This document shows positions 44,388 through 63,162 of a stretch of 64,000 bases of DNA, one piece after another. This DNA is from Nocardioides kongjuensis (GTDB taxonomy: Bacteria > Actinomycetota > Actinomycetes > Propionibacteriales > Nocardioidaceae), in NCBI RefSeq assembly GCF_013409625.1, contig NZ_JACCBF010000001.1, positions 4,777,001-4,841,000 of the forward strand. The letters run 5' to 3'. The notes under the pieces are model-generated. The model had not been told where the DNA came from. It did no database searches and worked only from the letters and a program-made list of their open reading frames with translations. The translations under genes and the position numbers were made by a program. The stretch's first letter is position 1. Each line of letters starts with the position of its first letter.

Positions 44388-44890
44388 CGGTGCACGAGGT
44401 CTTCGACGAGCGCCTCGAACCGGGCGAGCGTGGGGGAGACCCGATGCTCCGTGGGGGTGTGGTGACCGGTCAGCACGGCGAGCGAGAGCCGGGTCGCGAG
44501 CTCCTCCTCGTCGTACGCCGTCACGACGAGACCGGTCCGGGAGACGAACCGTGCGAACCGCTGCTGGTGGTCGTCGACGTGCTCGCCCAGGCGCGGGTCG
44601 CGCGGGACCACGATCGGCAGGTGGCCGTGCTCCCGGGCGTCCATGATCGAGCCGGGGCCGCCGTGCGTCACGACGGCGTCGGCGCGGTCGAGCAGGTCGC
44701 CCAGCGCGCCGGGCGCGAGCAGGGCGCTCCCGCCGACACCGTCGGGGAGTGGAGTGGAGCCGTGCTGCACGTGGAAGGAGAACAGGCCCTGCTCGGACAG
44801 GCTGACGACCCAGCGCACCAACCGGTCGAACCGGTGGTGGTCGGTGCCCAGGAAGACCGCGACGAGCGGTGGCTGCGCCCGCGTCACCAC
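44384..44890 (-). CDS. PssE/Alg13-like glycosyltransferase catalytic subunit
   Basis: Protein of 168 aa similar to the C-terminal half of GT28 enzymes. It starts LVAVFLGTDHHRFDRLVRWV and holds the UDP-sugar binding motif ADAVVTHGGPGSIMDAREHGHLPIVVPRD, with HVDDHQQRFARF. It has no acceptor domain, so it would need the adjacent PssD-like gene as partner. ATG at 44890 overlaps that gene by 7 bases. Sugar donor unknown, UDP-GlcA or UDP-Glc in related systems. Confidence 0.87.
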   Translation of the reverse strand: MVTRAQPPLVAVFLGTDHHRFDRLVRWVVSLSEQGLFSFHVQHGSTPLPDGVGGSALLAPGALGDLLDRADAVVTHGGPGSIMDAREHGHLPIVVPRDPRLGEHVDDHQQRFARFVSRTGLVVTAYDEEELATRLSLAVLTGHHTPTEHRVSPTLARFEALVEDLVHR

Positions 44891-45333
44891 AGCTCACCGA
44901 CCAGGACCGAGGAACGGTACAGGTGCTGCTGCTCGGGCCACTGCACGAGGAACAGGTCGGTGGCCGGTCGGCACAGCTTGCCGGTCAGGGTGCGGGTCTC
45001 GACCCGGTCGTAGACCTCGAGGTAGATCGACGAGGTCTGCCGGCGGTGACGCAGCCAGAAGTAGGGGACGGCGACAGCGGCGCCGGTCGAGACCACGACG
45101 TCCGGGGCGAACTCGTCGAGCACGTGGTGGGCCTGCACGGAGTTGCGCGCGAGGTTGACCAGGTTGCGGGTCGTCGGGTGGTGCGCCCAGGTCACGCTCT
45201 CGCCCTCGAGCTTGGCGACGGCGTCCGCGGTGTCGAAGGTGACCCAGTGCCGGTCGTGCTTCTCCCACCAGGGGCGCAGGCACATCAGCTGGGCGAGATG
45301 ACCTCCCGAGGAGGAGACGAGAAGCACCCGCAT
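44884..45333 (-). CDS. PssD/Alg14-like glycosyltransferase membrane subunit
   Basis: Protein of 149 aa with the family start MRVLLVSSSGGHLAQLMCL. It continues ARNSVQAHHVLDEFAPDVVVSTGAAVAVPYFW and SSIYLEVYDRVETRTLTGKLC, typical of the acceptor-side subunit of split GT28 enzymes. It would recruit the catalytic PssE-like partner to the membrane. I take the ATG at 45333; the open frame extends to 45402 but those residues look non-conserved. A CCCCAAATA-type box lies about 70 bp upstream. Confidence 0.87.
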   Translation of the reverse strand: MRVLLVSSSGGHLAQLMCLRPWWEKHDRHWVTFDTADAVAKLEGESVTWAHHPTTRNLVNLARNSVQAHHVLDEFAPDVVVSTGAAVAVPYFWLRHRRQTSSIYLEVYDRVETRTLTGKLCRPATDLFLVQWPEQQHLYRSSVLVGELW

Positions 45334-45396: not shown

Positions 45397-45424
45397 TGAC
45401 ATGCCCCAAATACGGCATGTCTGA
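45397..45424. promoter_or_regulatory. Palindromic box A upstream of the PssD-like gene
   Basis: GACATGCC (45398-45405) and GGCATGTC (45414-45421) form 8-bp arms around CCAAATAC. The centre, GCCCCAAATA, matches other boxes upstream of polysaccharide genes. A TAAGGT hexamer on the minus strand at 45374-45379 could be the -10 element, placing the box about 43 bases upstream of transcription start, where an activator would sit. Confidence 0.45.
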
Positions 45425-45453
45425 GCCGTTCCGCCGAGCGCCGGCGAAGGCCG

Positions 45454-46893
45454 TCAGGCGGCGTAGTCGCCGGCGAGCACGATCGCCTGTTCCTCGAGCA
45501 GGTGGTACTCGGCTCGGGTGATGGTGGTGGTGCCGCTGCCGGTGACGAGGCGGTGGAGGCCGTGGGGTGTGCCCCAGACCCACTTGTCGGGTCCGAGCTG
45601 CAGGACGGTGTAACCGAGGTGGGTCTTGGCTCGGTGGTGATGTCGCGACAACGGGGTGTCGTTGTGGTCGCCGGTCTGACCGGGTGGACCGTTCTTGTCG
45701 TAGGGCGTGGTGTGGTCGTGGTCGGGTGCCCGGCCGTGCTGGGTGAAGAGGCGGGTGGCGTGGGGGAAGACGTCGCCGATGGTGCGGAGCTCGGTGCGGT
45801 GTTTGACGTCGGTGGGGTGCTCGTAGCCGTTGACCGAGCGGCCGGTGTGGAGGTCGATGACCGGGGTGAGGGTGACGTGGGCGTGGCGGCGGAGCAGGTC
45901 GCGGACCTGGTCGAGCAGCCGTGGGCCGAGGCCTTCGACGCGGGCCAGCGGGCCGAGGGTGCCGTCGGCCTGTTGGGCGAGGTGGACGACGATCTCGGCC
46001 GTCGGGGCAGCCGGGGCAGGGGTGGGTTCGGGCTCGTCGCCTCCCTTCGCGTCTTCCTCCTCGATCTGGTGGAGGAACGCGAGGACGGCGGCGGGGTCGG
46101 CGAGCATCGCGAAGGCCTCGGCGCGCCAGTGGTCCATCCCCAGCGGCTCCTCGCCCTCAGCGGGCGGTGCTGCCTGCTCGGCCAGGGCGGTGGCGAGGTG
46201 CTCGACCATGGCGGCGTGCTCGAGGGCGTCGGCCTCGTCGAGACGGGCGAACACCGTTGCGACCCCGGCAGTGGTGCCGGTGCCGTCGGTGTCGTCGGTG
46301 TCGTTGATCTGGGAGCCGGGTCGGGGTGTGGGGTACCAGACGCCCTTGGTCTTCTGGTTGTCGGTGATCCGCTTCGCGTGGGCGACCGGGTCGGCCTCGA
46401 TGATCTTGGCTTCGGCGATCGTGAGGATCCGTGCGGGTGCTTCGTCCAGTGCGGCGGCGACCGCGTCGTCGACGATCCGGGCCTGGTGGCGGTCGAGCTT
46501 GCGGGACCAGCGGGCGACCTTGCGGGCCACCCACACCTCGCAGCGTCCGGCCTTCACGCCGGCCCAGACCTTCGGGAGGCGGTGGCGCAGGTCGAACGCG
46601 TCCGCCAGGGCGTTACGGGTGGTCAGCACGCCCTCGTGGCGGGCGATCGCGATCTCGACCAACGCCAGGTCCTGGACCTCCGGCGTCCCGTCCCCACCGA
46701 GGGTGATCAACCGCGGACCGCCGAACCTCACGGGCACGGCGTCGGGCTCGGCTTGCGGGTCTCCGGAGTGGAGGTCGGCCCAGGCGAGCAGCAGCTCGAG
46801 CTTGTCGACCTCGACCTCGCGCGCCATCCGGACACGGTCTTCGGCCGCGTGGAGCAGCTGCTCCGGTGTGGCGTCCGAGAGGTCCGAGATCAT
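45454..46893 (-). CDS. DUF222/HNH endonuclease-like protein (13E12 repeat family)
   Basis: Protein of 479 aa. The N-terminal DUF222 helices include EQLLHAAEDRVRMAREVEVDKLELLLAWADLH. The HNH end has DHDHTTPYD and LSRHHHRAKTHLGY. The Cys residues that usually bind zinc around this motif are absent. The family is abundant in actinobacteria and often mobile in copy number; 13E12 members in M. tuberculosis are SOS-regulated. ATG at 46893 lies 12 bp from a LexA-type box, and a TAAAAT (46899-46904) suggests a leaderless transcript. It interrupts the polysaccharide region. Confidence 0.85.
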   Translation of the reverse strand: MISDLSDATPEQLLHAAEDRVRMAREVEVDKLELLLAWADLHSGDPQAEPDAVPVRFGGPRLITLGGDGTPEVQDLALVEIAIARHEGVLTTRNALADAFDLRHRLPKVWAGVKAGRCEVWVARKVARWSRKLDRHQARIVDDAVAAALDEAPARILTIAEAKIIEADPVAHAKRITDNQKTKGVWYPTPRPGSQINDTDDTDGTGTTAGVATVFARLDEADALEHAAMVEHLATALAEQAAPPAEGEEPLGMDHWRAEAFAMLADPAAVLAFLHQIEEEDAKGGDEPEPTPAPAAPTAEIVVHLAQQADGTLGPLARVEGLGPRLLDQVRDLLRRHAHVTLTPVIDLHTGRSVNGYEHPTDVKHRTELRTIGDVFPHATRLFTQHGRAPDHDHTTPYDKNGPPGQTGDHNDTPLSRHHHRAKTHLGYTVLQLGPDKWVWGTPHGLHRLVTGSGTTTITRAEYHLLEEQAIVLAGDYAA

Positions 46894-46904
46894 GCTTGAT
46901 TTTA

Positions 46905-46920
46905 TCGCACACATGTTCGA
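46905..46920 (-). promoter_or_regulatory. LexA (SOS) box before the HNH gene
   Basis: On the minus strand TCGAACATGTGTGCGA matches the actinobacterial LexA pattern TCGAAC-N4-GTTCGA at 11 of 12 fixed positions. It directly abuts the likely -10 element (46899-46904), so binding would block transcription of the DUF222/HNH gene. The rest of the 282-bp gap to 47175 shows nothing I can name. Confidence 0.65.
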
Positions 46921-47175
46921 ACAGCCAGTGTCGTGCAGCGAGTTTCGCATTGTTTCTAGCGGGTTCTCGAGGTCGCGGCCGGTCGCGCGCTACCTCGTTG
47001 ATCCCGGGGAGAACCGCAACCCGACAGCGGAACCCGACCCCCTACGGAGCTCTCTCGTCGCTGCGCCTTTTCAAGACTGTGCCCGCTACGCAACCGAGAC
47101 TCATGGGCGAGCGGCCGGGCGGGCCTGGCAATGGAGGCTCGCCGACGTCCCTCACCCCTCGACCACCGGCAGACC

Positions 47176-47862
47176 TCACCCCTGGGGCGGGTGCCAGCCG
47201 ACCTTGTAGGCCGCGCCGACGGCGGCGAGCTGGGAGCTCATCTCCATCTTCGCCAGGATCGACTTCACCTGCGTGCGCACGGTCGCCTCGGACACCACGC
47301 TGTCCCGGGCGATCTCGCGCACCGGTGCACCGCGCATCAGGGCGCCGAGGACCTCCATCTCGCGGCGGGTGAGGCGGTCGAGCCGGGTGCGGATGTCGCG
47401 GACCTCGTCGCGGTCGTGGAGAGCCAGCTCGATCAGCGAGCCGCGCTCCTGGGCGTTCATGAGCGGCAGCCCGTCGCGGGCCCGGCGGACGGTGGCGACG
47501 ACCTCGTGCAGCGGGCAGGTCTTGACGAGCACGGCCTTCGCGCCGCGGCGCAGGCACTCGCCGCGGCGGGCGCTCTCGCCGCTTCCGGTGACCACGACCA
47601 CGGCGATGCCGGCAGCGGCGAGGGGCGTGATCAGCCGCATGCCGTCGCCGACGCGGCCCAGGTCGAGGTCGAGCAGGATCACCCGGGGGGCGCTGCGCAG
47701 GGCGGTCGCGAGCACGGTCGCCAGGGTGGTGTGCTCGTCGGTCAGGTCGATGCGGCGTACGGCGTAGCCCTCGGCCTCGAGGGTCAGCGAGACCGACTCG
47801 GCGAACAGGGCGTGGTCGTCGATGATGGTGATCCGCATCGGGCGGGGGCGTCCGGTCGACAT
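47176..47862 (-). CDS. LuxR-type response regulator
   Basis: Protein of 228 aa. The receiver domain has the acidic pair D15-D16, phospho-acceptor D65 in VILLDLDLG, and K114 in AVLVKTCP. The LuxR helix-turn-helix (about 160-225) reads LTRREMEVLGALMRGAPVREIA and VSEATVRTQVKSILAKMEMSS. It would bind DNA as a dimer when phosphorylated by the adjacent kinase. ATG at 47862, 5 bp after the kinase stop; MRITIIDD at 47838 is an alternative. Candidate reader of the shared boxes in this region. Confidence 0.9.
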   Translation of the reverse strand: MSTGRPRPMRITIIDDHALFAESVSLTLEAEGYAVRRIDLTDEHTTLATVLATALRSAPRVILLDLDLGRVGDGMRLITPLAAAGIAVVVVTGSGESARRGECLRRGAKAVLVKTCPLHEVVATVRRARDGLPLMNAQERGSLIELALHDRDEVRDIRTRLDRLTRREMEVLGALMRGAPVREIARDSVVSEATVRTQVKSILAKMEMSSQLAAVGAAYKVGWHPPQG

Positions 47863-47867
47863 CGGCG

Positions 47868-49451
47868 TCAGCTCGCGGCCGCGGCCGTCGTGACCGACGG
47901 CTCCCGGGACTCCGACGACGACATGAGCAGTGCTGCGCCGGCGTCGACGTCGAGGCCGGCGTTGCGCAGCGTGACCACGAAGGTCGCTCCGCCGCCACGG
48001 CCGGAGGGGTCGTGGTGCAGCGAGCCACCGAGCTCGAGCATCAGCCGGTGGGCCCGTTGGAGTCCGATGCCCTGGCCGGTCGAGCCGGAGCCGCGGGCTC
48101 CCCACTGGAAGAGCCGGTCCTCGAGGCCGGGCTCGATGCCCGGTCCTCGGTCGGAGACCCGGATCTCGACGCAGTCCCCGGTCACCTGCGACACGACGGT
48201 GGTGGCGTGCCCGTGAGCATGCCGGTGGGCGTTGGTGAGGAGCACGTTGAGGACCTCCGCGAGGGCGTCGGGACGGGCGAGGACGCGGTGCCCGTCGGGG
48301 TGCCAGTGCACTCGGTGACCGAGCGCCTCCTGGGCGATGACGAGGGGCTCGACGACGTCGTCGACCGCGAGCTCGGCGAGCTGGTCGGGACCGTCGTCGG
48401 TGCAGGTGCGACCGAGGCGCGCCGCCTCTGCGTCGACCATGTGCTTGAGTGCCAGTCGGCGCGGTCCCGGCGGGACCTGGTCGCTGGCGAGGAGGTGGAC
48501 GCCCGCGACGATCCCCGCGGTCGCGGCGCGCATCTCGTGGACCACCTCCCGGTCGTGCTGGACGGTCGCCTCCGCCTCGGCGGCCCGCAGCACGAGGCTC
48601 GCCTCGCGGGAGCTGTGCTCACGCAGCGAGGCGCCCAGCAGTCCGATCGCGGTCGTGGCCACCAGCGAGCTGCACAGCACCACCCCGACCATCACGACCG
48701 GCGGCGGCGACGACGCCTCGACGAGGGTCGCCCAGGCCCGGGCCGCGAAGATCACGAAGACGCCGCACGCGATCCGCTGGGCTGCCCAGTGAGGCAGCGG
48801 GGAGCGCAGCAGGCGCACCGTCACGAGGACCGTGACGCCGGCGATCGCCGCCAGCACCAGCACGTCCTGCCACTGGCCGACCGTGAGGAACGGCGCCGGG
48901 TCGGTGAGGATCTGACCGAGCCGGACCGCCAGCACGCCGAGCCCCAGCAGCAACCCACCGAGCATCGGGTTGAAGCGCGGCGCGTGCTGGTCCCGGGTGC
49001 CGACGGAGAAGACGCCGTACAGCACCAGCACGGTCACCAGGTGCCCCGCGGTGAGCCGGTAGCTGTGCCCGCCGCTCGCCGGGTCCCCGAGCGACATCAT
49101 CACGAGCGGCAGGTCCTGGACGGCGACCAGCGTCGCGGCGGTCGCCAGCCGGGCCTTGACCAGGCTCTGCTCGATGCTCACGTCGAAGCTCAGCGCGAGC
49201 GCACTGCCGAGCAGGACCAGGTCGGCCAGCACCATGCTCAGGTGCCCGGCCGCAGCCACGGACTGGGTCGACGGGTCCTCGAGGAGCAGGACGCCGTACG
49301 GGTGGAGCATCAGACACGCGAGGAGCACGGCCCACCACAGGGGCGCGCGATCAGCTGCTCTCGGCGAGGAGACTGACGGCCGCCCAGCCACCGCCCGAGA
49401 GAGCGCTCGGCGAGAGCGCCGGGACTGACGGCCCTGGTGCGGACCGGTCAT
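47868..49451 (-). CDS. Membrane histidine kinase
   Basis: Protein of 527 aa. Roughly seven or eight hydrophobic helices cover residues 38-275 with no large sensing domain outside, so it probably senses something within the membrane. The dimerisation helix holds H305 in HDREVVHEMRAATAG. The ATPase domain has the N box (N407 in LLTNAHRHAHG), D434 in VSDRGPGIEP and G2 STGQGIGLQRAH. ATG at 49451. A CATAAT at 49459-49464 implies a nearly leaderless message, with box B centred near -59. Confidence 0.9.
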   Translation of the reverse strand: MTGPHQGRQSRRSRRALSRAVAGRPSVSSPRAADRAPLWWAVLLACLMLHPYGVLLLEDPSTQSVAAAGHLSMVLADLVLLGSALALSFDVSIEQSLVKARLATAATLVAVQDLPLVMMSLGDPASGGHSYRLTAGHLVTVLVLYGVFSVGTRDQHAPRFNPMLGGLLLGLGVLAVRLGQILTDPAPFLTVGQWQDVLVLAAIAGVTVLVTVRLLRSPLPHWAAQRIACGVFVIFAARAWATLVEASSPPPVVMVGVVLCSSLVATTAIGLLGASLREHSSREASLVLRAAEAEATVQHDREVVHEMRAATAGIVAGVHLLASDQVPPGPRRLALKHMVDAEAARLGRTCTDDGPDQLAELAVDDVVEPLVIAQEALGHRVHWHPDGHRVLARPDALAEVLNVLLTNAHRHAHGHATTVVSQVTGDCVEIRVSDRGPGIEPGLEDRLFQWGARGSGSTGQGIGLQRAHRLMLELGGSLHHDPSGRGGGATFVVTLRNAGLDVDAGAALLMSSSESREPSVTTAAAAS

Positions 49452-49502
49452 GCTGGCGATTATGCGCGGGTGTCCGGCCCCACGTCGAGGAAGACCTCAA
49501 CG

Positions 49503-49518
49503 TACCCAATTTTTGGGC
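49503..49518. promoter_or_regulatory. Palindromic box B upstream of the kinase/regulator operon
   Basis: CCCAA (49505-49509), a TTT centre, and TTGGG (49513-49517) make a near-perfect palindrome preceded by TA. Relative to the probable start of the kinase transcript its centre lies at about -59, a common activator position. It also lies just past the 3' end of the giant secreted-protein gene (stop at 49551). Confidence 0.5.
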
Positions 49519-49550
49519 CTGCTCGGCGTGTCGGTGCGGCGTCACCGTCC

Positions 49551-52500
49551 TCAGGGTGTGCTCACCGTGACCTGGCGGGTGGTCGTCGTGGCGACCCCCC
49601 AACCGTCGGTCACGGTCAGCTGGACGGTGTAGGTGCCGGCCGCCGGGAAGGTGTGGGACACCGAGCTCGTGGTCGCGTTCGCGGTGCCGTCGCCCCAGAC
49701 CCAGCGGTAGGTGATCGTGTCGCCCGCATCCGGGTCGCTCGAGCCCACGGCCGAGAAGTTGCAGACCAGGCCCGAGCACGCCGGCGGGTTCAGCACGGCC
49801 ACCGGCGCCCGGTTTCCGGGCGGTGTCGTGATCGTGACGGTCTGCGTCGCGGTGCCGGTGTCGCCCCACTCGTCCCGCGCGGTGAGCGTGACGGTGAAGG
49901 TGCCCGGCGTCGCGTAGGTGCGGGTCGGGAGCGGACCGGTGCCGGTGCCGTTGCCGAAGTTCCACGAGTAGGTCAGGGTCGCGGCGTTCTCGTCGGTCGA
50001 GCTGCGGGCGTCGTAGGTGCAGACGTTGTTGGTGCAGCTGACCGTGAAGCTCGCCACCGGCGGGTTGTTGGGCGGGTGGGTGACGGTCGCATGCCTCTCG
50101 GACACCGCGCTGACGAAGTTGTGCTGGTCGATCGCCCGCACCTGCACGGTGTAGGCCCCGGCCGGGATCACCGGAGTCGTGTAGGAGAAGTTCGAGCCGG
50201 GGGTGCCGGGACTGTTCAGGAACGCCGTGCGCCAGCTCGGCGTGGTGCTGGTGAAGGTCCCCGTCGAGCTCATGTACTGCCCGGCGGAGTTCACGATCCC
50301 GACCTGCACCTGCTGCATCGCCTGGTCGTCCTCGGCCCGGCCGCTCACGAAGATCTTGCCGTCGGGGAACTCGGCGCCCTCGGTCGGGCTCAGCAGCGCG
50401 TCGGTCAGCACCGGCGGCTGGTCGCCCGGGTAGATCGGGTAGCGCGACGTCGCCCCGGTCGTCGACGGGTCCTGCTGGCCTGCCGTGTCCCAGGCGTACG
50501 CCGTGACGTTCCAGTCACCCTGGGTCGGCAGCGCCCGGTTCAGCGTCCAGGTGGTGCTCGTCGCCCCGGGACTGGCCAAGGTGGCGTCCAGGTAGGCGAG
50601 CGAGGCGGACATGGTGCCGTCCGGCTGCAGGTAGCGGCTGGTGTCGGCGTCGCGGAGCGACACGGCGACGCGGGCGACGCCCTTGTCGTCCGTGGCTGCG
50701 CCCGAGAGGTTCAGCAGCAGCACCTGCTGGCCGGTGATCGTCCCGGTCGGCGTGATCGTCGCGTTGGGCGGGTTGTCGCCCGGGATGGTGGCGTTGAGGG
50801 TCAGCCGGCCCTGGTTGGCCGACGACGTCGACAGGCCGATGTTGTCGTCGGCGCTGACCGTGAACGTGTAGCTGCCGGGGCTGAGGTTGAACGGCGTCGT
50901 GTAGCTCCAGTTGTAGCTTCCCTGGTTGATGTTGACGGGCGAGATCCGGTAGGAGCCCGCGATCACGTTCGTGCCCCAGGAGCCGTCGGCCGCCAGCCGC
51001 TCACCCGTTGACGTGTTGCGCAGCGTCACCCACACCTGGTGCAGGGACTGGTCGTCGTTGGCCGAGCCCGCGAACGTGATCGGGCTGCCGGGTGTCACCG
51101 TCACCGGCTGGACCGCCGTCGGCGGCACCATCGACACCGGCTGGCTGATCGACACCGTCGGCGCCTGTCCGGTGGTCGTCACGATCCAGCGCCGGTCGGC
51201 GGTGTCGAGCGACGACTGGCCACCCGTGTCGGAGGAGCGTGCCTGCGCCCACCACTCGTCCTCGAAGGGCACGGTGACCTCGTAGGACCAAGTGGTCGAC
51301 GTCGCGCCCACCACGTCGGGCGTGATCTGGAACGAGTTGTAGGTGAAGGACACGGTGCCGTCGTCCTGCAGGTAGCGGTTCTGCGTGTCGCGCAGGGTCA
51401 GGCTGACCCCGTTGACGCCGATGTCGTCGGCCGCGCTGCCGGTGATGGTGAAGGTCGTCTGGGCCTGCGGGCTCGGCGGGCCCGTGATGCTGGTCGTCGG
51501 CGGCGCGTCGGCGGTCCCGAAGGTCTCGAACTTCTTCGACGCCTTGGTGTTGTCACCGGTGCCGTTGCCCGCCACGGCGCGGGCACGGACCAGCAGCTCG
51601 CGGTTGGTGGCCATGGTGAGCGGCAGCCGCCAGGTGCGGGTCGGGCCGGTGCCCGGGTCCAGGGTCGCGTTGAAGGTGTTGAGCGTCGTCGTGCCCCACG
51701 TGGTGAGGTCGTCGTTGAGGTAGCGGTTGGTGTTGCGGTCCTGGATCTCGACCTCGACCCGGTTGATGCCCGAGGCCGCGGTCGCCGTGCCGGTGATCTC
51801 GTACTGCTCGTTCACCGGCTCGATCCGGCCCTCGATGGGCGCGGTGATCGTGGTCTGGGTGCCGTTCTGCGCCGGCACGCTGTTGAAGTCGAGGAAGGCG
51901 ATCCGGCCGACGTTGTAGCCGCCCTTGGTGTTGCCGTCACCGCCCACGAACAGGCCGCGCGGCGTCGCCTCGAGGTGCTTGTCGCCCTCGTTGGAGTTCG
52001 ACGACACGAACCACTCCAGGGCGTGCCCGTCGACCGGGTCGAGCGCCGCGAGGTGGGCGCGCTTGACCACCGCGTCGCCCAGGGCGTACGCCGACAGCCC
52101 CTGCCCGGTGCCGTAGCCGACGTCGTCGAGACCGGGCCACGGCAGCGGTGCGGTCGCCGACTCGGACCACTGGAAGTGGCCGCCGACGTAGATGCCGGCC
52201 TCGGTGATCACGACCGAGTACGTCGAGTCGAACTGCCGGGTGATCCACACCGGCTGGGCGTTCGGGTCGTCGTTCATGTTGAACCTGATCACCGTGTCGT
52301 TGATCGGTGGGCGGTCGCCGCCCGAGCCGCTGGTCACGATGAAGTAGGAGCCGTCCGGCGAGATGTCGCCGCCGTAGGCGCGCTGGATGCCGCCCACGAA
52401 CTGCAGGTTGTCCTGCCACAGCGTGGTCTTCCACGGCGTCAGCTTGTTGGTGCGGGTGTTGATGATCGCGACGCCGTACCGGTCCTGGCCGTTGACCTGG

Positions 52501-55064: not shown

Positions 55065-55148
55065 CTGCCTCACCGTCCCCGCACTCGCATGATGCCCTCG
55101 GTCCTGAGGGCACGGCGATCGTGTCAACGGTCACACGGCAGGGGCATG

Positions 55149-55163
55149 ACCGATATTGGGCAG
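55149..55163. promoter_or_regulatory. Box C in the divergent intergenic region
   Basis: ACCGATATTGGGCAG lies about 90 bp upstream of the giant-protein start. On the minus strand it reads GCCCAATATCGG, nearly the same as GGCCAATATCC at 63135-63145. It also resembles box A (CCGTATTTGGGGCAT on the minus strand). Confidence 0.4.
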
Positions 55164-55208
55164 GATTCGCCCGCACTTTCGGGGCTCTCGGCGGCCTGCA
55201 GCGCACCC

Positions 55209-55228
55209 ATCCCACAAATTGGGGGTAT
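55209..55228. promoter_or_regulatory. Box D in the divergent intergenic region
   Basis: CCCACAAATTGGGGG (55211-55225) followed by TAT. On the minus strand it reads TACCCCCAATTTGTGGG, close to box B (TACCCAATTTTTGGG). It lies 113 bp before the Wzz-like gene and 145 bp before the giant-protein gene, so it could serve either. The 276-bp region otherwise has a TTGACA on the minus strand at 55122-55127 without a clear -10 partner. Confidence 0.45.
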
Positions 55229-55340
55229 CTGCCGACGCCCTGCTCACGGGCCCCTGGGGGCGCCCATGATGAACCGGTCATCGAGCGGACCGGCTCGGTC
55301 GACCAGACCGATCTGCCGGACCTGGACCGGGGAGGTGGAC

Positions 55341-56768
55341 GTGGAGCAGCGCCGTGTGCTTCCACTGCGAGTCGTCGCGCTCGCGCTCCTGGCGGGTCTG
55401 CTCGCGGGCGCCGCGGCGTGGGGTTGGGGCCAGCGTCGCGCCGAGGAGCACGTCGGGACCGCCACGATCATGCTGCACCCGCTGGAGGGCAACGCCTACA
55501 GCCCCGGTGGCCGCGGCGACGACCTGGTCAACCTCGAGACCGAGGCGCAGGTGCTGCGCTCGGACACCGTGGCCCGCGCGGTCCTGGACAAGCTGCACGA
55601 GGCCGGCACGCCCTCCGACCTGCTCGCGGCGGTCACCGTCGTGGTCCCGCCCAACACCCAGCTGCTCCAGATCACCGCACGCGGCAAGGACGACGCCACG
55701 GCCGTCGCCCGGGCGTCCGCGTTCGGCGACGTCTACCTCGAGTTCCGCCGCTCGCGCACCGAGTCGGCCGTCTACGAGCAGACCTCACGCCTCGAGGAGC
55801 TGGTCAAGCAGCGCGAGGACGAGCGGGACGCGGCCGTCGCGCACCTCGACCAGCTCAAGAGCGATGCTCCCGAGCGGGCCCTGATCCAGCAGCAGGTGCA
55901 GGAGGAGGTCGTCCAGATCGGCTCCCTGCGCGCCCAGCTCGCCGCGGCCCAGGCCGTCGCGCTCGACCCCGGCCAGGTGGTCACGCCCGGCCAGGTCGTC
56001 GGGGCGGGCCTGTGGGCCTCGCCGACCCGTGTCGGCGCGATCGCGGGCGTCCTCGCGGCCCTGCTGGTGCTGGGGATCGCGGTCGTCCGCCGGACCGGTG
56101 CCGCACCCGGCGTGGTGCGTCACCTCGACGACCTCGCCGACGCGGGCCCCACGGTCCTCGGTGAGCTCCGGACCCCGGTCCGGGCCGACAGCGACGTGAT
56201 CGCCCACGCGCGATCCGTGGTGCTCGCTGTCGGTTCGGACCGGCCACCCGTGGTCGCCGTGGGCGCGGTCGGAGCCGGGGCCTCCATCGCCTTCCCCGCG
56301 CTCGTCGACTCCTTCGTGCGGGCCCGCTACGAGGTCGTCGCCGTCGACCTGACCCGCCGCGCGGACCGCCAGGCGATGGCCGAGCTGGTCATGCAGCAGG
56401 CCGTCGTCGCCGACGTCCTCGTCGAGGACGGCCACTTCCGCAACCGGCTGCGGCCCCTCGAGCCGCTGCCGGGCGCCGTCGACGCAGCGCCGCCGACGGA
56501 CGACCTCGACGACCTGGCCGCCTCCGCGGAGATGCGTCGCATCCTCGCCGAGCTCGCCAAGCGTGCCGACCTGGTCCTGCTGCGCTCGCCCGGACTGGGT
56601 ACGACGGTCGGTCGCGCCGTGCTGGTCGCCGCCACCGCCGTCGTCGCCGAGGTCCCGCAGGGCTCGGCCACCGAGGCCGACCTCGCCGTTCTCACCGCCG
56701 AGGCCGAGCGGGTCGGGACCGTCGTGGCGGGGCTGGTCCTCACCCACGGGCGCGGGGACGAGTCGTGA
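55341..56768 (+). CDS. Wzz-like polysaccharide chain-length protein with degenerate kinase-like domain
   Basis: Protein of 475 aa. One helix near the N-terminus (VVALALLAGLLAGAAAWGW), a Wzz-type outer domain (ATIMLHPLEGNAY, coiled-coil LEELVKQREDERDAAVAHLDQL), and a second helix (GAIAGVLAALLVLGIAVV). A cytoplasmic domain like BY-kinases follows, but where Walker A should be it has AVGAVGAGASIAFP, with no Lys, and no Tyr cluster at the end. It probably regulates chain length without kinase activity. GTG at 55341 with GGAGG 5 bases upstream. First gene of a five-gene operon. Confidence 0.85.
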   Translation: MEQRRVLPLRVVALALLAGLLAGAAAWGWGQRRAEEHVGTATIMLHPLEGNAYSPGGRGDDLVNLETEAQVLRSDTVARAVLDKLHEAGTPSDLLAAVTVVVPPNTQLLQITARGKDDATAVARASAFGDVYLEFRRSRTESAVYEQTSRLEELVKQREDERDAAVAHLDQLKSDAPERALIQQQVQEEVVQIGSLRAQLAAAQAVALDPGQVVTPGQVVGAGLWASPTRVGAIAGVLAALLVLGIAVVRRTGAAPGVVRHLDDLADAGPTVLGELRTPVRADSDVIAHARSVVLAVGSDRPPVVAVGAVGAGASIAFPALVDSFVRARYEVVAVDLTRRADRQAMAELVMQQAVVADVLVEDGHFRNRLRPLEPLPGAVDAAPPTDDLDDLAASAEMRRILAELAKRADLVLLRSPGLGTTVGRAVLVAATAVVAEVPQGSATEADLAVLTAEAERVGTVVAGLVLTHGRGDES

Positions 56769-58264
56769 CGGATCGGACCGGAGAGCCCTCGGACCTCGAG
56801 GCCCACCACCTGCGCGCGGTCGCGCGCGGCAGCACGGCGACCCTGCTCGGCGCGGTGCTCAGCACGCTCGCCGGCTTCGGTCTGGTCCTGGTCGTGACCC
56901 GGGGCGTCGACCCGGACCCCGCCGGCCGGTTCTTCGCGGCGACGGCCGTCTTCCTCGTGGCGCTCGCGGCAGCCGGGCTCGGGACCGACACCGGGCTGGC
57001 GCGGTTCGTGCTGCGGACCGACCAGCCGGGTGCCGTGCGCAGGCTGGTGGGGATGGCTGCGATCCCGGTGCTGGTGGTGGCCGCAGCGCTGGCGCTGGCC
57101 CTGGCGGCCTGGTGGCCCGACACCCGGTGGCTGGTGTGGGCGTTGCCGCTCGCCGCCACCTCCGACCTGTGCCTGGCCGCGGTCCAGGCCCACGCGACCT
57201 TCCGCGCGGCCGTGCTGATCGACCGGATCGTGCGACCCGGGGCGCAGATCGTGCTGGTGAGCGCCGCCGTGGTCGCCGGGCTGCCCGGCGCCGTGCTGGC
57301 GCTCGCCTGGGGGGCGGCCTACCTGCTCAGTGCGGTGCTCGCCGTGCGCGCCCTGCACGGGGTGCTGCGCAGGGCCGGGCCCGACGCCCCGGCAGGGGAG
57401 CACGTCACTCCCCGCGAGTTCTGGGGCTTCACCTGGGCGAGGGCCGCGGCGCGGATCGCGCAGGTCGGCGTGCAGCGGCTCGACATCGTGCTGGTCGCCT
57501 GGCTGTTGACGCCCACGGACGCTGCCGTCTACACGGTCGCGACCCGGTTCGTGGTGTTCGGCCAGCTCGCCAACCAGGCGGTGTCCTCCGTGGTGCAGCC
57601 GAGGTTCACGCTGATCCTCGCCGACGAGGCCGGGGACGCCGGAGCCCGGCGGGCACTGCTCAGCCGGGTGTTCGCGGTGACCACCAGCTGGAGCGTGCTG
57701 CTGGCGTGGCCGGTCTACCTGTGCGTCGCCGCGGCCCCCCTGGCCTACCTGGGCTGGTTCGGCACGGCCTACACCACCGACGACGCCCGCACGGTCGCCC
57801 TCGTGATGGCCGGCGGGATGCTGGTCGCGGTCGCCTCCGGACCGGTCGACACCCTCCTGCTGATGACCGGGCGCAGCACCCGCAGCCTCGCCAACACCCT
57901 GGTCGCGCTGGTCGTCGACGTCGGTGGCTGCCTGCTGCTGGTCCCGCGGATGGGCATCGCCGGTGCCGCCCTCGCCTGGGCGGTCGCGGTCGTCGTACGG
58001 TGCGCGCTCGCGGTGGTCCAGGTCCGCCCGGACATCGGGCTGCTGCCCGGTCGCCGCACCCTGCTCGTCGCCGCAGCCGTTCCCCTCGGCTGCGTCGGCG
58101 TACCGCTCGCGCTCGCGCAGGCCCTCGGCGGCCTGACCCCTGCGACCTGGCTGCTGGCCTCGGCGCTCGTCGCCGTGGGCTACGTCGCGGTGGTGTGGCG
58201 GTTGCGCGCCCGGCTCGCCGTCGACCTGTTCCTGCCCCGGCGACGAGAGCTGGTGACGGCATGA
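56765..58264 (+). CDS. Polysaccharide flippase (Wzx-like, MOP superfamily)
   Basis: Protein of 499 aa with 12-14 transmembrane helices. It starts with a cytoplasmic segment, then LRAVARGSTATLLGAVLSTLAGFGLVLVVTR, typical of Wzx/RfbX proteins, and has LTPTDAAVYTVATRFVVFGQL and GMLVAVASGPVDTLLLMTGRS. It would turn the lipid-linked repeat unit across the membrane. GTG start at 56765 overlapping the Wzz-like stop; ends in an ATGA overlap with the sulfotransferase gene. Confidence 0.88.
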   Translation: MTDRTGEPSDLEAHHLRAVARGSTATLLGAVLSTLAGFGLVLVVTRGVDPDPAGRFFAATAVFLVALAAAGLGTDTGLARFVLRTDQPGAVRRLVGMAAIPVLVVAAALALALAAWWPDTRWLVWALPLAATSDLCLAAVQAHATFRAAVLIDRIVRPGAQIVLVSAAVVAGLPGAVLALAWGAAYLLSAVLAVRALHGVLRRAGPDAPAGEHVTPREFWGFTWARAAARIAQVGVQRLDIVLVAWLLTPTDAAVYTVATRFVVFGQLANQAVSSVVQPRFTLILADEAGDAGARRALLSRVFAVTTSWSVLLAWPVYLCVAAAPLAYLGWFGTAYTTDDARTVALVMAGGMLVAVASGPVDTLLLMTGRSTRSLANTLVALVVDVGGCLLLVPRMGIAGAALAWAVAVVVRCALAVVQVRPDIGLLPGRRTLLVAAAVPLGCVGVPLALAQALGGLTPATWLLASALVAVGYVAVVWRLRARLAVDLFLPRRRELVTA

Positions 58265-59145
58265 GCGGGCTGCGCACGGTGGCGGGGAAGGCGCGGCGCC
58301 GGCTGCCCGAGCCGGTGGTCCGCGCGGCCCGGGCGCTCCTGCTCGGGTGGGGCTGGCTGACCGCCGACCTGCGCGAGGAGCCGGGTGTCATCGTCGTCGG
58401 CGCGCAGCGGGCGGGGACGACCACCCTGTTCCGGCTGCTCAGCGAGCACCCGCACCTGTGCCGGCCCACCGTCGACAAGGGGACCGGCTACTTCGACGAC
58501 GGCTACCGGCACGGCCGGCGCTGGTACCGCGCCCACTTCCCGCTGCGCCGCCCCGGCCGCTGGCGCCGGACGAGCTTCGAGTGCAGCGGCTACTACCTCT
58601 TCCACCCGCTCGCCGCCGAGCGGATCGCCCGCGACCTGCCCGGCGTCCAGGTCGTCGCGATGGTCCGCGACCCGGTCGCGCGGGCCCACTCGGCGCACCG
58701 CCACGAGCTCGCCCGCGGCTTCGAGACGCTGCCGTTCGCCGAGGCCGTCGAGAGCGAGCCGGCACGCACCGCCGGCGTCGCCGCCCGGCTGGCGGCCGAG
58801 CCCGGCACGCTGAGCTTCGAGCACCGGCACCACGCCTACCTGCAGCGCGGCGAGTACGCCGTCCAGCTCCACCGCTTCGTCGAGCAGCTCGGCCCGGACC
58901 GGGTGCACGTCGTCGAGGCCGACGAGCTGTTCGCCGACCCGGTGCCGGTGTACGTCGACCTGCAGCGCCGCCTCGGCCTGCCGGTGCACCGCCCCGACGA
59001 GGTCGGCCGCTGGAACGAGCGCCCCGGCGACCCGCTGCCCCCCGACCTGGAGGCCCGGCTGCGCGGGCATTTCGACGACCACGACGCCGCCCTCGCCGAG
59101 CTCCTCGGCCGGGTGCCCAGCTGGCGAAAGGAATCACTGCGATGA
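58261..59145 (+). CDS. PAPS-dependent sulfotransferase
   Basis: Cytoplasmic protein of 294 aa. The 5'-phosphosulfate binding loop is VVGAQRAGTTTLFRLLSEHP, and the 3'-phosphate site is VAMVRDPVARAHSAHRHELA; both are typical of the heparan-sulfate-type/Stf family. Also FVEQLGPDRVHVVEADELFADP. In this setting it probably adds sulfate to a sugar of the repeat unit. ATG at 58261; overlaps its neighbours at both ends by 4 bases. Confidence 0.9.
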   Translation: MSGLRTVAGKARRRLPEPVVRAARALLLGWGWLTADLREEPGVIVVGAQRAGTTTLFRLLSEHPHLCRPTVDKGTGYFDDGYRHGRRWYRAHFPLRRPGRWRRTSFECSGYYLFHPLAAERIARDLPGVQVVAMVRDPVARAHSAHRHELARGFETLPFAEAVESEPARTAGVAARLAAEPGTLSFEHRHHAYLQRGEYAVQLHRFVEQLGPDRVHVVEADELFADPVPVYVDLQRRLGLPVHRPDEVGRWNERPGDPLPPDLEARLRGHFDDHDAALAELLGRVPSWRKESLR

Positions 59146-60371
59146 CTGCACTCCATCCTCCCCGCGGCCGCCACACCGTGCTCTCGGGCCCCGTCCGTCA
59201 CCGGCTGGCACGGGGCACCCGCTGGCACCCCGGCACCCGCGAGGTGCGGCTGTCGCACCTGCTCCTCGGCGGCCAGAACGGGATGAGCGGGCACGAGTTC
59301 GCGACGGCGATGATGGACCCGCTGTGGCCCTCGCGCCGGGTGGTCGAGGGGCCGCACGCGGAGCTGCTGGAGCGCGGACCCGGCCAGTCCGACCACGACA
59401 TCCTCCGGTCGAGCTATGCGCGCATGGCGCGGGCGTGCATCCGGCACACGGGCGTCTACTTCGACGCGACCGACGACGCCGGGATCGTGGCCCAGGCCCG
59501 GCAGGTCCTCGCCCGGGCGGCCGGTGAGCCCGCGGAGGTGCCGACGGGCGTGATGCACTCCCCGCCCGGCCAGCCGGTGCTCGTCGCACCCATCGCGGAC
59601 TCGAGCTGCTTCCAGGTGATCGACGGCCACCACCGGATCGCGCTGGCGGCCGCGGCCGGGGCGACCACCATCCCCGTGCGGGTGCGCCGCGGCAAGGTCA
59701 GCACGCCGCTGCAGGACCTGCTCCACGAGATGTCGTGGCTCGAGGGCGGCCGGGAGCTCTACCAGCCCGTCGACTCGCCCGAGCTGGCGGCGCTGTGGCC
59801 GATCGTGCGTTGCTGCGTCGACCGGCTCGAGGCCATGGAGGGCTTCCTGCGCCCGCGCGGCCTGCTCGAGGGTCGCTACCTCGACGTCGCCAGCTGCTAC
59901 GGCTGGTTCGTCGCTCAGATGGCGGAGCGGGGGATGGCGGCCGAGGGCATCGAGCGGGACCCGCTCGGCGCGACCCTGGGCCGGCTGGTCTACGGCGTCG
60001 ACCCGGACCGGATCCGGATCGGGGACGTCGTCGAGGTCCTGCGCGGGACCCGGGAGCAGTGGGACGTCGTGTCGTGCTTCAGCCTGTTGCACCACTTCGT
60101 GCTCGGCCGCGGTTCCTGCGACGAGGTCGAGCTGATCCGGCTGCTCGACAAGTCGACGCGGCGGGTGCTCTTCTTCGACACGGGCCAGGAGCACGAGCGC
60201 TGGTTCCAGAAGTCACTGCGCGGCTGGAACCCCGAGCACATCCGCGACTTCCTGCTGACGAACACGACCTTCGACCAGGTGCTCGACCTGGGTCCCGACC
60301 GCGACGCCGTCGGCCCGTACGCCGAGAACTACGGGCGCCACCTGTTCGTCTGCGTCCGCGAGGACCGGTGA
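59142..60371 (+). CDS. SAM-dependent methyltransferase with ParB-like N-terminal domain
   Basis: Protein of 409 aa in two parts. Residues about 75-205 contain FQVIDGHHRIALAAAAGATTIPVRVRRG, the xDGHHRxxA signature of ParB/sulfiredoxin-fold domains. Residues about 235-405 form a methyltransferase domain with RYLDVASCYGWFVAQMAERG (motif I), EGIERDPLG, and WDVVSCFSLLHHFVLG. Other possible roles for the first domain include kinase or nuclease activity. ATG at 59142 overlapping the sulfotransferase stop. Target probably a sugar of the repeat unit, by context only. Confidence 0.72.
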   Translation: MTALHPPRGRHTVLSGPVRHRLARGTRWHPGTREVRLSHLLLGGQNGMSGHEFATAMMDPLWPSRRVVEGPHAELLERGPGQSDHDILRSSYARMARACIRHTGVYFDATDDAGIVAQARQVLARAAGEPAEVPTGVMHSPPGQPVLVAPIADSSCFQVIDGHHRIALAAAAGATTIPVRVRRGKVSTPLQDLLHEMSWLEGGRELYQPVDSPELAALWPIVRCCVDRLEAMEGFLRPRGLLEGRYLDVASCYGWFVAQMAERGMAAEGIERDPLGATLGRLVYGVDPDRIRIGDVVEVLRGTREQWDVVSCFSLLHHFVLGRGSCDEVELIRLLDKSTRRVLFFDTGQEHERWFQKSLRGWNPEHIRDFLLTNTTFDQVLDLGPDRDAVGPYAENYGRHLFVCVREDR

Positions 60372-61546
60372 GCGCGGTGACCAGCGAGCTGCTCGAGACC
60401 GTGGCCGAGCTGTGGCCCGGCGCCGACGTCGTCCCCGCGGGGACGGCGGGCGACGGCCGGCCGGTACGCGCCCGCTACGCCCTGCTCAGCCGTGGCGACG
60501 ACCCGACCGTGCTGGTGCCCGTCGAGTCGGCCACGGCCGCCGGGGCCTCGTTGCGCCGGTTCAGCACCGCCTCCTCCTGGTGGGAGACGACCTCGCGCGT
60601 GGCTGCGGGAGCCGCCGTGCGGGCGCTGCCCGGGCTGCTGCGCCAGCGCGTGGAGATCCGGGGCGGGCACGACGGGCTGGCCGTGCACCTCTCGGAGGTC
60701 CTCGGCACGCCGGTCAGCTTCAGCCTCAGCATCGGCACCGCTCGGGTGAACCGGAAGCCCGTGCTGCAGGTCTTCGACGAGGAGGGCCGGTGCCGGGCGT
60801 TCGCCAAGGTGGGCTGGTCGGAGAACACCTGCGCCGACGTGACGGCGGAGGGCCGGGCGCTGGCGACGGTGACCGCCCTGGAGTACCAGCACGTCGTACC
60901 GCCCCCGCTGCTGGCGCGGACGTCGTGGGCCGGGCGCCCGGTCCTCGTCATCGGGCCGTTGCAGCCCTCGCCGTGGCGTCGCCACCGGCGTGCCTGGACG
61001 CCCCCCGAGGAGGCGATGACCGAGCTGGCGTCGTCCTTCGCCTCGCCGGACGGCCGGCTGACCGACTCCGCGTGGTGGCAGCGCCAGTGGGAGGCCACCG
61101 GGGCGCTGGTCGACCCGGTGCTGCGCGGCCGCTTCGGGCGGGCGATGGAGCGGGTCGACGGGATCGTCGGACGGCGGGCGCTGAGCTGGGGTGCGTGGCA
61201 CGGCGACTGGACGCCGTGGAACATGGCCGTGTCCGGCGACGCCGTCCTGCTGTGGGACTGGGAGCGCTTCGAGACCGGCGTACCGATGGGCCTGGACCCG
61301 CTGCACTACGTCGTGAACTCGTTCAACTCCGGGGTGCCGGCCTCGATCGAGGGGGTGCTGCGCGCGCTGTGCTTCGCGTCGTACCGCGACCGGAGCCTGG
61401 GTGGCGAGCCGCACGTGACGAGCCTGCTCTACCTGGTCGCGATCCTGACCCGGTACCTGCGGCTGGTCGACGTGCCCGGCGGGGAGCACATCTCGCCGCG
61501 CGCGATGCAGACCCTGGTGGCACTCGAGCGCCTGACCCAGGTGTGA
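60368..61546 (+). CDS. APH/choline-kinase-like phosphotransferase
   Basis: Protein of 392 aa. The last third shows the phosphotransferase signature: WHGDWTPWNMAV (catalytic Asp and Asn) and LLWDWERFETGVPMGLDPLHY (metal Asp). CRAFAKVGWSENT holds a candidate ATP-binding Lys, followed by TAEGRALATV. The first 130 residues are unlike known kinases. The gene overlaps the methyltransferase gene by 4 bases, ending the operon. By context it may phosphorylate a sugar or lipid intermediate. Confidence 0.7.
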   Translation: MSAVTSELLETVAELWPGADVVPAGTAGDGRPVRARYALLSRGDDPTVLVPVESATAAGASLRRFSTASSWWETTSRVAAGAAVRALPGLLRQRVEIRGGHDGLAVHLSEVLGTPVSFSLSIGTARVNRKPVLQVFDEEGRCRAFAKVGWSENTCADVTAEGRALATVTALEYQHVVPPPLLARTSWAGRPVLVIGPLQPSPWRRHRRAWTPPEEAMTELASSFASPDGRLTDSAWWQRQWEATGALVDPVLRGRFGRAMERVDGIVGRRALSWGAWHGDWTPWNMAVSGDAVLLWDWERFETGVPMGLDPLHYVVNSFNSGVPASIEGVLRALCFASYRDRSLGGEPHVTSLLYLVAILTRYLRLVDVPGGEHISPRAMQTLVALERLTQV

Positions 61547-61585
61547 GACCCGGGGCAGGCGCTCGAGAAGGTGCGTCGGGTGCCG

Positions 61586-63037
61586 TCAGCGCAGGTGCGG
61601 CGAGCCGGCGAGCACCTGGGCGAACTCGTTGAGCTTCTCCGGGGTGCCGAGCGTCCACGGAGCCGTGCTGTTGAGCTCGCTGTCGAAGTAGGAGTAGGCG
61701 ATGCCGCCGAAGTCCTGCATGCTCTGCACGGTGTTCGCGATCTCGGTCGGCCGGTCGACGGCCGCCTTGTCGGTGATCCCGGTCTCGCCGAGCGCCCAGT
61801 CGACGCCGACGGTGCGGGCCCAGGCCGCGATCTTCTGGAAGTAGCCCGGCATGTCGACCCAGCGCAGGTCCATCTTGCCGTTCTTGACCGAGCCGTACTC
61901 CTGGTAGATGTCGAAGCCGGCGACGTCGATCTTGACGCCCCGCGGCCAGATGTTCGCCAGGCTGTACTGCGGGTCGCCGTAGAACTGGTGCCACCCGGTC
62001 ACGATCACGGTGAACGCCACGTTGGGGGCGTTGTTGCGGATGATCGGCGCGAGGTGCTCCTGCATCCGGCGCCACTCCTGGATGTCGCCGTCGTTCTCCG
62101 GCTCGTGGTGGAAGGCCACCCAGACCGGGCCGGGCAGCGCCGCGAGGCGCTGGGCGAGGTCGGTCGCCCAGGCGTCACCCACGCCGTTGGCCATGTCGGT
62201 CCAGCTGTACGGCGGCTTGAAGCTGATCCACGGCAGCCGGCCGGCGGCCAGGTCGGCCGAGGCGTTCTTGACGGCGCTGGCGACACCGGTGCCGGTGTAG
62301 TAGGTACGGCGCACCGCGAGCTTGTTGCCGAGCTGCTGCTCGAGCGCGGTCGGGTCGGTGTTGCCGCCGTGGGCAGCGCCGATGTAGGTGCCGCACGCCG
62401 GGATGCCTCGTGCGTCACGGCTGCAGCCGTTGGACAGGCTGCCCGCCGAGCCCTTGCCGCCACCGGCCTTGACCCGCAGGTCGTCGACCAGCAGTCGCTG
62501 CGCGGAGGTGAGCGAGGGGGTGCGGAACCGGAGCTTGAACACCGAGTTCGCCGCCTTCGCGGTCATCTTGACCTTGACCCGGGTCCAGGCCCGGCCCTTG
62601 GCGTTGACCGTCCTGGTCTTGGTCTGCAGGGTCCTGCCCTTGACCTCGCGGACCTGCAGCGTCACGGCGCGCTTGCCCGTGGAGCGGACCCAGGCCCGCA
62701 CGACGTACGTGGTGCCCTTGGAGTGGGCGCCACCGAACCGGTGCTTGCTGACGGCGGCGGCCGGCCCGTGGTTCTTCGTGCGCACGACCAGCGCGCGGCT
62801 GTGGTTGCGTCCCTCGCCGGTGCGCGAGAGCTTCACCCGGCTGCCGCCGACACCGGCGAACCCGTCCAGGTGCGACTCGAAGGTCCCGGTGGGGACCGAC
62901 TCCTGCGCCGCACGGCTCGGCTGTGCCGAGGTCGGCACCGCCGCGACGGCGCTGGTCAGCAGCACGGCAGCCAGGACCGGCAGCCAGAGCCACCGCACGA
63001 GGCCGTTCTTGTTCTTCGTCTTCTCGGCGTCCTGCAA
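61586..63037 (-). CDS. Secreted GH26-like glycoside hydrolase with beta-sandwich domain
   Basis: About 483 aa. N-terminal signal/anchor helix (LVRWLWLPVLAAVLLTSAVAAV). A jelly-roll sugar-binding type domain (about 50-190: TYVVRAWVRSTGKRAVTLQVREV) precedes the catalytic barrel (about 205-483). The likely acid/base is in AFHHEPEND (E312) and the nucleophile in WALGETGITD (E418), as in GH26-like enzymes. TTG at 63037 is proposed because GGAGG lies 7 bases upstream and the longer open frame to 63223 reads as noise. It probably trims the polysaccharide. It faces the Wzz operon convergently. Confidence 0.78.
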   Translation of the reverse strand: MQDAEKTKNKNGLVRWLWLPVLAAVLLTSAVAAVPTSAQPSRAAQESVPTGTFESHLDGFAGVGGSRVKLSRTGEGRNHSRALVVRTKNHGPAAAVSKHRFGGAHSKGTTYVVRAWVRSTGKRAVTLQVREVKGRTLQTKTRTVNAKGRAWTRVKVKMTAKAANSVFKLRFRTPSLTSAQRLLVDDLRVKAGGGKGSAGSLSNGCSRDARGIPACGTYIGAAHGGNTDPTALEQQLGNKLAVRRTYYTGTGVASAVKNASADLAAGRLPWISFKPPYSWTDMANGVGDAWATDLAQRLAALPGPVWVAFHHEPENDGDIQEWRRMQEHLAPIIRNNAPNVAFTVIVTGWHQFYGDPQYSLANIWPRGVKIDVAGFDIYQEYGSVKNGKMDLRWVDMPGYFQKIAAWARTVGVDWALGETGITDKAAVDRPTEIANTVQSMQDFGGIAYSYFDSELNSTAPWTLGTPEKLNEFAQVLAGSPHLR

Positions 63038-63134
63038 GACGCCACCTCCCCGGATCTCCGGGGCCGCGGGAGCGAAACTACGGCCCTCGTTCTCTCTTGT
63101 CTTCGGCTCGATTGGAACCGGAACGAGAGATCGT

Positions 63135-63162
63135 GGCCAATATCCTCCCCCATTTGAGGTAC
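63135..63162. promoter_or_regulatory. Box E upstream of the GH26-like gene
   Basis: Two elements: GGCCAATATCC (63135-63145), nearly identical to box C, and CCCCCATTTGAGGTA (63147-63161), which on the minus strand reads TACCTCAAATGGGGG and matches boxes B and D. They lie about 100-125 bp before the TTG start. A TAGTTT at 63075-63080 (minus strand) may be the -10 element. Confidence 0.4.

Follow-up and report, generated by a model that had tools for sequence, protein, structure and literature searches.

The window analysed here comprises 64,000 nucleotides of Nocardioides kongjuensis DNA (bases 4,777,001-4,841,000 of a one-contig, 5.67-Mb genome), and a polysaccharide cluster spans around 41 to 72 kb, with the numbering continued past the window end. 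The cluster comprises PssD- and PssE-like genes, a sugar transferase, a response regulator (RR1) with a sensor kinase, a giant protein with PKD repeats, a Wzz-like operon, a CBM_4_9/GH5-like gene, and further genes, followed by a second regulator (RR2, at 69.2 kb) and a second kinase. RR1 (47176..47838, minus strand) is a NarL/FixJ-type response regulator with an intact receiver, a GerE/LuxR helix-turn-helix, and the recognition helix SEATVRTQVK; its nearest named relatives are found in Nocardioides sp. SLBN-35 and Pimelobacter simplex 3E (98% identical each). The sensor kinase gene lies upstream of it on the same strand (47868..49451), and its product has a HATPase_c domain and an N-terminal half that is hydrophobic by eye. 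The subject of this report is a set of palindromic boxes in front of several of these genes that, judging from the sequence, look like genuine control sites.

The weakest of the set, box A (45398..45421, minus strand), is a palindrome with 8-bp arms before the PssD-like gene (44884..45333, minus strand; Alg14 family in Pfam), which is followed by the PssE-like gene (44384-44890, minus strand; Glyco_tran_28_C). Box B, TACCCAATTTTTGGG (49503..49517, minus strand), or CCCAAAAATTGGGTACGTT when read toward the kinase, precedes the kinase-RR1 operon. Box C, TACCCCCAATTTGTGGGA (55210..55227, minus strand), lies between the giant PKD gene (49551..55064, minus strand, start codon set by eye) and the divergent Wzz-like operon (55335..61546, plus strand), in which five tightly spaced genes encode a Wzz-like protein without a Pfam match, a Polysacc_synt_3 flippase-like protein, a sulfotransferase, and two proteins without Pfam matches. 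Box D, TACCTCAAATGGGGGA (63146..63161, minus strand), precedes the CBM_4_9/GH5-like gene (61586..63037, minus strand), and box E lies between two divergent genes at about 66,310-66,325, 2.3 kb past the window end. A preliminary description of this DNA had claimed boxes A to D, and all four are where it placed them, every box falling in a gap of a new gene call; the GH26-like identity that it gave to the gene behind box D gives way to CBM_4_9 and Cellulase (GH5) in Pfam. It had also proposed a second shared element, CCAATATC, at 55149 and 63135. The copy at 55149 is almost invariant, but the one at 63135 is kept in just 2 of the 11 relatives compared, and we therefore reject CCAATATC as a shared element. 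Element C′, CCTGCCCAATATCGGTCATGCC (55143..55164, minus strand), which lies toward the giant PKD gene at a distance from box C that varies from about 38 to 75 bp, is perhaps a half-degenerate box.

Boxes were counted with the rule CCCCAA-N(0-3)-TTGGGG, with at least 10 of the 12 positions matching, and 14 permuted half-sites served as controls. In the 40-72 kb stretch of our own genome, the rule has four noncoding matches in 2,134 noncoding bases, namely boxes B, C, D, and E, and the permuted half-sites give 0 to 2; box A scores below the threshold. When orthologous promoters were aligned, the boxes proved to be conserved, in keeping with the earlier reading: boxes A to E recur in 8 to 13 of 13 Nocardioides genomes, our own counted (7 to 12 others). 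Box B is present in all ten aligned kinase promoters (own included), roughly as CCAAAAATTGGGTACGTT and once as TTAGGGACGTT, with ATAATCG downstream, while box C and element C′ are almost invariant in nine aligned promoters and recur in the wider set. Box D is present in 12 of the 13 genomes, several of the relatives among the 12 aligned coming nearer to a perfect palindrome, TCCCCCAAATGGGGGA, and box E is kept in 10 of the 13. A palindrome related to box A occurs in all eight aligned genomes, with our own form in four and near forms in the other four, this alignment being limited to genomes in which the search pattern matched.

The boxes also keep a constant distance, counted from TTGGG, to -10-like hexamers. 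The kinase operon has CATAAT (49459..49464, minus strand) 40 bp downstream of box B and 7 bp before the kinase ATG, and a kinase mRNA produced from this predicted -10 would be leaderless; the spacing is 40 bp in 9 of the 13 genomes and 42 bp in one, and the other three had no match to the search pattern. On the Wzz-like operon side, CATGAT (55265..55270, plus strand) stands 41 bp from box C, a distance found in 12 of the 13 genomes, with 42 bp in the remaining one, and box E lies 41 bp from the -10-like hexamer of the gene at 66,462 in all ten genomes that have the box. These distances give good support to the single regulon that the preliminary description proposed, since three promoter regions, those of the kinase operon, the Wzz-like operon, and the 66,462 gene, all combine this box with a -10-like hexamer at 40-41 bp.

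RR1 orthologues with at least 71% identity occur in 13 of 147 Nocardioides genomes, our own included, and all 13 are among the 14 genomes that hold box C with at most two mismatches. This overlap could be due to the shared descent of one cluster, and therefore 20 more distant RR1-homologue loci (L205-L224), chosen from the list of RR1 homologues without regard to the boxes there, were examined together with 20 control stretches from the same genomes, taken at arbitrary places and unmatched in gene content. In the regulator loci, the rule picks out 46 noncoding boxes, spread over 17 of the 20 (61 kb of noncoding DNA), versus three in 3 of the 20 controls (48 kb). For the permuted half-sites, the noncoding counts are 7-32 in the loci versus 5-33 in the controls, the largest contrasts being 17:6, 16:7, and 20:9 (about 3:1 at most). 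Three of the test-locus genomes (G049, G089, and G102) had a three-mismatch match to box C elsewhere in the genome. Whether the box is equally common elsewhere, a point raised in the preliminary description, has thus been checked in part, with a clear excess in the regulator loci of relatives and none in our own genome as a whole. Stretches with a kinase paralogue that lack RR1 and RR2 hold zero (G085) and one (G134b) noncoding boxes. Outside the orthologous loci, there are 26 further sites within three mismatches of box C (after exclusion of the 13 orthologous ones and of a duplicated strand row); 8 of the 26 have an RR1 homologue within 30 kb, and 18 are farther from one or unplaceable. From these comparisons, we infer that the boxes are linked to the regulator at 47176. 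Among 245 genomes of the order, RR1 matches at E values up to 1e-50 came from 50 genomes, all in one of the 37 genera, weaker matches not having been examined.

A consensus and spacing counts for the distant clusters were drawn from 34 loci, which leave out the 13 orthologous clusters, the four loci of our own RR paralogues, G085, G134b, and L176; part of the 34 (L166-L172, L175, and G067) had initially been picked for a box near RR1. No counts rest on the rough gene call made for 3-kb loci, which cannot be relied on close to their ends. The 53 boxes with one central base give the consensus TTCCCCAAWTTGGGGAA, with A or T at the centre in 90%, even though the rule did not require it. Of two further patterns, TACCNNAATTNTGGG with one mismatch has a single match, box B itself, and TCCCCAAWTTGGGGA with one mismatch matches in 12 of the 147 genomes, our own not among them; most boxes deviate more. 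A near-perfect box, ATACCCAAAATGGGGTAT, was seen at genome position 3,503,696 (L138); the gene downstream of it encodes a secreted protein with, by eye, a likeness to von Willebrand A domain proteins.

In these distant clusters, the hexamer YANNNT is found 40-43 bp away on 41 of 108 box sides versus about 4.7 expected from other offsets, and on 38 of 101 sides, from 28 loci, once similar sides are removed. Three permuted half-sites also peak at 40-43 bp (CCCACA, 14/44; ACCCCA, 13/56; CCCAAC, 9/36), presumably because these box-like half-sites catch the same sites, and the other 11 give 0 to 5. If the usual distance between the -10 and the transcription start applies, the box centre would be near -60, which is a class I activator place. 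The constant operator-to-promoter distance expected of class I activation is seen at boxes B, C, and E and in the distant clusters; at box A, the distance is 24 bp to a -10-like TAAGGT within a conserved TCCCTA(A/G)GGTC, and no such arrangement is seen at box D. Judging by position, the boxes would act in activation rather than repression. In kinase promoters of the group whose RR2 has the helix TVRSHVK (L215-L219, for example), a second degenerate box, such as GCCCTATTTGCGGTACG, stands directly before a CACAATC-like hexamer, where a repressor or a class II activator would more typically bind.

As to the protein that would read the boxes, RR1 matches PF00072 and PF00196 above the Pfam gathering scores, as is proper for a NarL/FixJ-type regulator, and the VraR, DesR, and NarL chains are matched by sequence. 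The acidic pair, phosphoacceptor Asp, and conserved Lys of the receiver are present in all nine aligned RR1 sequences. The other candidate, RR2, is likewise of the NarL type but has a degenerate receiver; its gene lies past the window end (69,190-69,876), and the preliminary description did not mention it. The complete acidic pair is lost in 12 of 12 aligned RR2 sequences (read by eye), the Lys is absent at the aligned column in all 12 (L206 has a Lys one position earlier), and near the phosphoacceptor place there is Asp in 7, Glu in 2, and neither in 3. The recognition helices of our own RR2 and RR1 are nearly alike, TVRSQVK and TVRTQVK, respectively. In the distant clusters, the helix TVR(T/S)Q(V/I)K occurs in the best RR1 match of all 34, and the RR2 helix is mostly TVRSQVK-like, with TVRSH(V/I)K in one group. 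An RR2-like protein is encoded in the fetched stretch of 31 of the 34 and elsewhere in the genome for the other three (G063, G088, and G099), and a frequent gene order is RR2 on one strand, the box or boxes, and then the kinase and RR1 on the other strand. The box reader is likely to be RR1, perhaps with RR2, which, as a candidate reader or partner, appears to be tied to the boxes as closely as RR1.

The TVRSH(V/I)K group offers a view of how two such regulators might share one site. In its ten fetched loci, the RR2-kinase promoter holds a hybrid box, GTGCACNNAWTTGGGGA, with one half unchanged (TTGGGGA, the RR1-type half, in 10 of 10 aligned loci) and GTGCAC as the other half. Across the 147 whole genomes, GTGCACNNAWTTGGGGA has 20 exact matches in 19 genomes versus none for the control, and each of the 20 has an RR1 homologue 1.3-2.5 kb away and adjoins an RR2 with TVRSH(V/I)K. 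The constant half therefore goes with RR1, whose helix is constant, and the changed half with RR2, whose helix has changed, a pairing that suggests an RR1-RR2 heterodimer, as in BldM-WhiI.

BldM and WhiI are NarL-type regulators. For these atypical response regulators of Streptomyces, the BldM homodimer has a 16-bp palindrome, TCACcCgnncGgGTGA, and the BldM-WhiI heterodimer has a non-palindromic site, TGnnCCGnnCGGGTGA, which shares just one of its halves with the homodimer site (PMC4125116). The likeness consists of the two regulators and of a site with one constant and one changed half, which our clusters show in the one RR2 group, whereas the half-site here is TCCCCAA and the targets are polysaccharide genes rather than those of sporulation. 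RR1, moreover, has an intact receiver and an adjacent kinase, the genes of RR1 and RR2 usually share a cluster, and their binding is predicted. We put forward tentatively, and at somewhat less than even chances, that a heterodimer switches the polysaccharide clusters of Nocardioides. It would pair a phosphorylatable NarL-type regulator with a dead-receiver partner, the two genes often lying divergently on either side of the box; each helix would read its own half, and the box would have evolved half by half with its helices.

Conserved boxes at a fixed spacing, then, are tied to loci that carry the kinase, RR1, and RR2, and we consider it probable that they are the operators of one polysaccharide regulon under the control of the kinase and RR1, the latter as a dimer with itself or with RR2, activating promoters whose -10 lies 40-43 bp downstream. 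Phosphorylation, DNA binding, dimer type, and activation could fit together as follows. The sensor kinase would phosphorylate RR1, which would dimerise with itself or with RR2 and bind the palindrome TCCCCAAWTTGGGGA through the recognition helices; the bound dimer, its centre near -60, would then activate sigma-70-type promoters with a -10 at 40-43 bp. Besides the kinase-RR1 operon itself (a feedback), the targets would be the Wzz-like operon and the 66,462 gene, and perhaps also the PssD-like gene, with its 24-bp spacing, and the glycosidase gene, which has no clear -10.

Several observations weigh against this regulon. Among the 13 genomes searched, box D was not found in G002, box E was not found in G042, G002, and G033, and box A was not found by pattern in five (G014, G056, G145, G002, and G033); by eye, the aligned box D promoters have no clear -10 hexamer at 41 bp. 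Searched for across our own genome with at most two mismatches, a 13-bp form of the box gives 35 rows versus 34 for the reversed control, so that the box signal resides in place and conservation, not in the total count. By the rule, three test loci out of the 20 are without a box, two of which carry the hybrid box instead. The 20-kb stretches of three of the four RR1 paralogues of our own genome, with 58-69% identity and the helix TVRTQVK, yielded no noncoding box, nor was an HK1-like kinase or an RR2 found there; the fourth (52%) has two weak sites, at genome positions 3,966,598 and 3,969,452, one with an AT-poor centre, of which one precedes a gene distantly like that at 60,368 and the other a gene for a secreted, by eye GH16-like protein. 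The hybrid box is confined to one RR2 group and may reflect one evolutionary event, and L180, outside that group, has a TVRSHVK RR2 without a hybrid box (10 of 11 TVRSHVK loci have it). Finally, RR1 and RR2 co-occur, and their presence or absence therefore cannot tell which of them reads the box; such a test was rejected once G063, G088, and G099 were seen to encode an RR2-like protein elsewhere.

A rival reading makes RR2 the reader, acting independently of phosphorylation by virtue of its degenerate receiver, with RR1 acting elsewhere or merely modulating RR2. The near identity of the two helices in our own genome, the occurrence of an RR2-like protein with every distant cluster or elsewhere in its genome, and the way in which the hybrid box tracks the RR2 helix type would all agree with such a role, but the unchanged half of the hybrid box tracks the unchanged helix, which is that of RR1, and we regard RR2 as an unlikely sole reader.

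Improbable, too, is a third, unlinked regulator that reads the boxes and counts the RR1 and RR2 loci just among its targets. The RR1 paralogues that share the helix and have no boxes nearby would be explained in this way, and the binding of the boxes by RR1 or RR2 is itself a prediction; against it, all 20 hybrid boxes in the 147 genomes are near RR1, the 20 control stretches contain just three noncoding boxes, and the kinase-paralogue stretches without RR1 and RR2 hold only zero and one.

That the palindromes are RNA features such as terminators is very doubtful. Box B does lie about 34 bp past the PKD stop codon, but we reject it as a terminator since no T run follows it and since it persists in G145, where the kinase and the Wzz-like gene are about 0.9 kb apart with no room for a PKD gene (the L045 promoter is the same); furthermore, boxes C and E stand between divergent genes, and the fixed spacing to -10-like hexamers contradicts an RNA feature. 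A chance likeness of AT-rich islands in GC-rich DNA, for which the absence of an excess of the bare 13-mer over its reversed control might speak, is scarcely credible in view of the conservation in up to 13 genomes, the permuted-motif and same-genome controls, and the spacing.

As a NarL-type two-component system and its operator, the proposed regulon belongs to a known type, and what appears unusual is the conserved dead-receiver partner and the box halves that seem to follow two helices. The operator of NarL in E. coli has a 7-2-7 arrangement of inverted TACYNMT heptamers 2 bp apart. RR1 shares the receiver-plus-HTH build of NarL, and box B, like its G042 form (TACCCAATTTTGGGTG), bears a resemblance to TACCCAA-like heptamers in a 7-2-7 layout; RR1 is, however, distant in sequence (E 1.4e-8 to 1a04), its regulon is different, and the consensus of the one-base-spacer boxes departs from the 7-2-7 form, which just some sites approach. 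In Clostridioides difficile, CmrR and CmrT are two co-regulated response regulators in one signalling locus, and pseudo-receiver regulators are known (PMC12548384, PMC12632262). Paired regulators in one locus and a degenerate receiver are thus shared with our system, while CmrR and CmrT belong to the OmpR family, and no relation to these boxes was seen. A full-text literature search, with most subscription journals outside its coverage, found no earlier description of this regulon. A motif spotted by eye has in this way become a testable regulon, widespread in the genus, with an operator, a promoter geometry, a kinase, a regulator, a dead-receiver partner, and surface polysaccharide genes, and in the hybrid box, with its corresponding change of helix, nature has provided a mutation experiment on the way in which two paired regulators of the NarL type could split one operator.

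Some features of the cluster lie outside this argument. The second kinase gene (69886-71334, minus strand, past the window end) encodes a protein 46-48% identical to the first kinase; its 84% relatives in G085 and G134 lie in stretches that lack both RR1 and RR2. Between the PssD-like gene and RR1, an open reading frame without a Pfam match (45454-46950, minus strand) resembles a movable insertion; relatives of it are found at L162:4884 (84%), in the G139 stretch (two copies), and in G034 (one copy), and the stretches of G083 and several more yielded none. At opposite cluster ends, the genes at 41016-42983 (minus strand) and 66462-68372 (plus strand, past the window end) encode proteins with weak beta-propeller matches and 41% mutual identity. 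Lastly, the sulfotransferase gene in the polysaccharide operon (58261-59145, plus strand) hints at a sulfated product.

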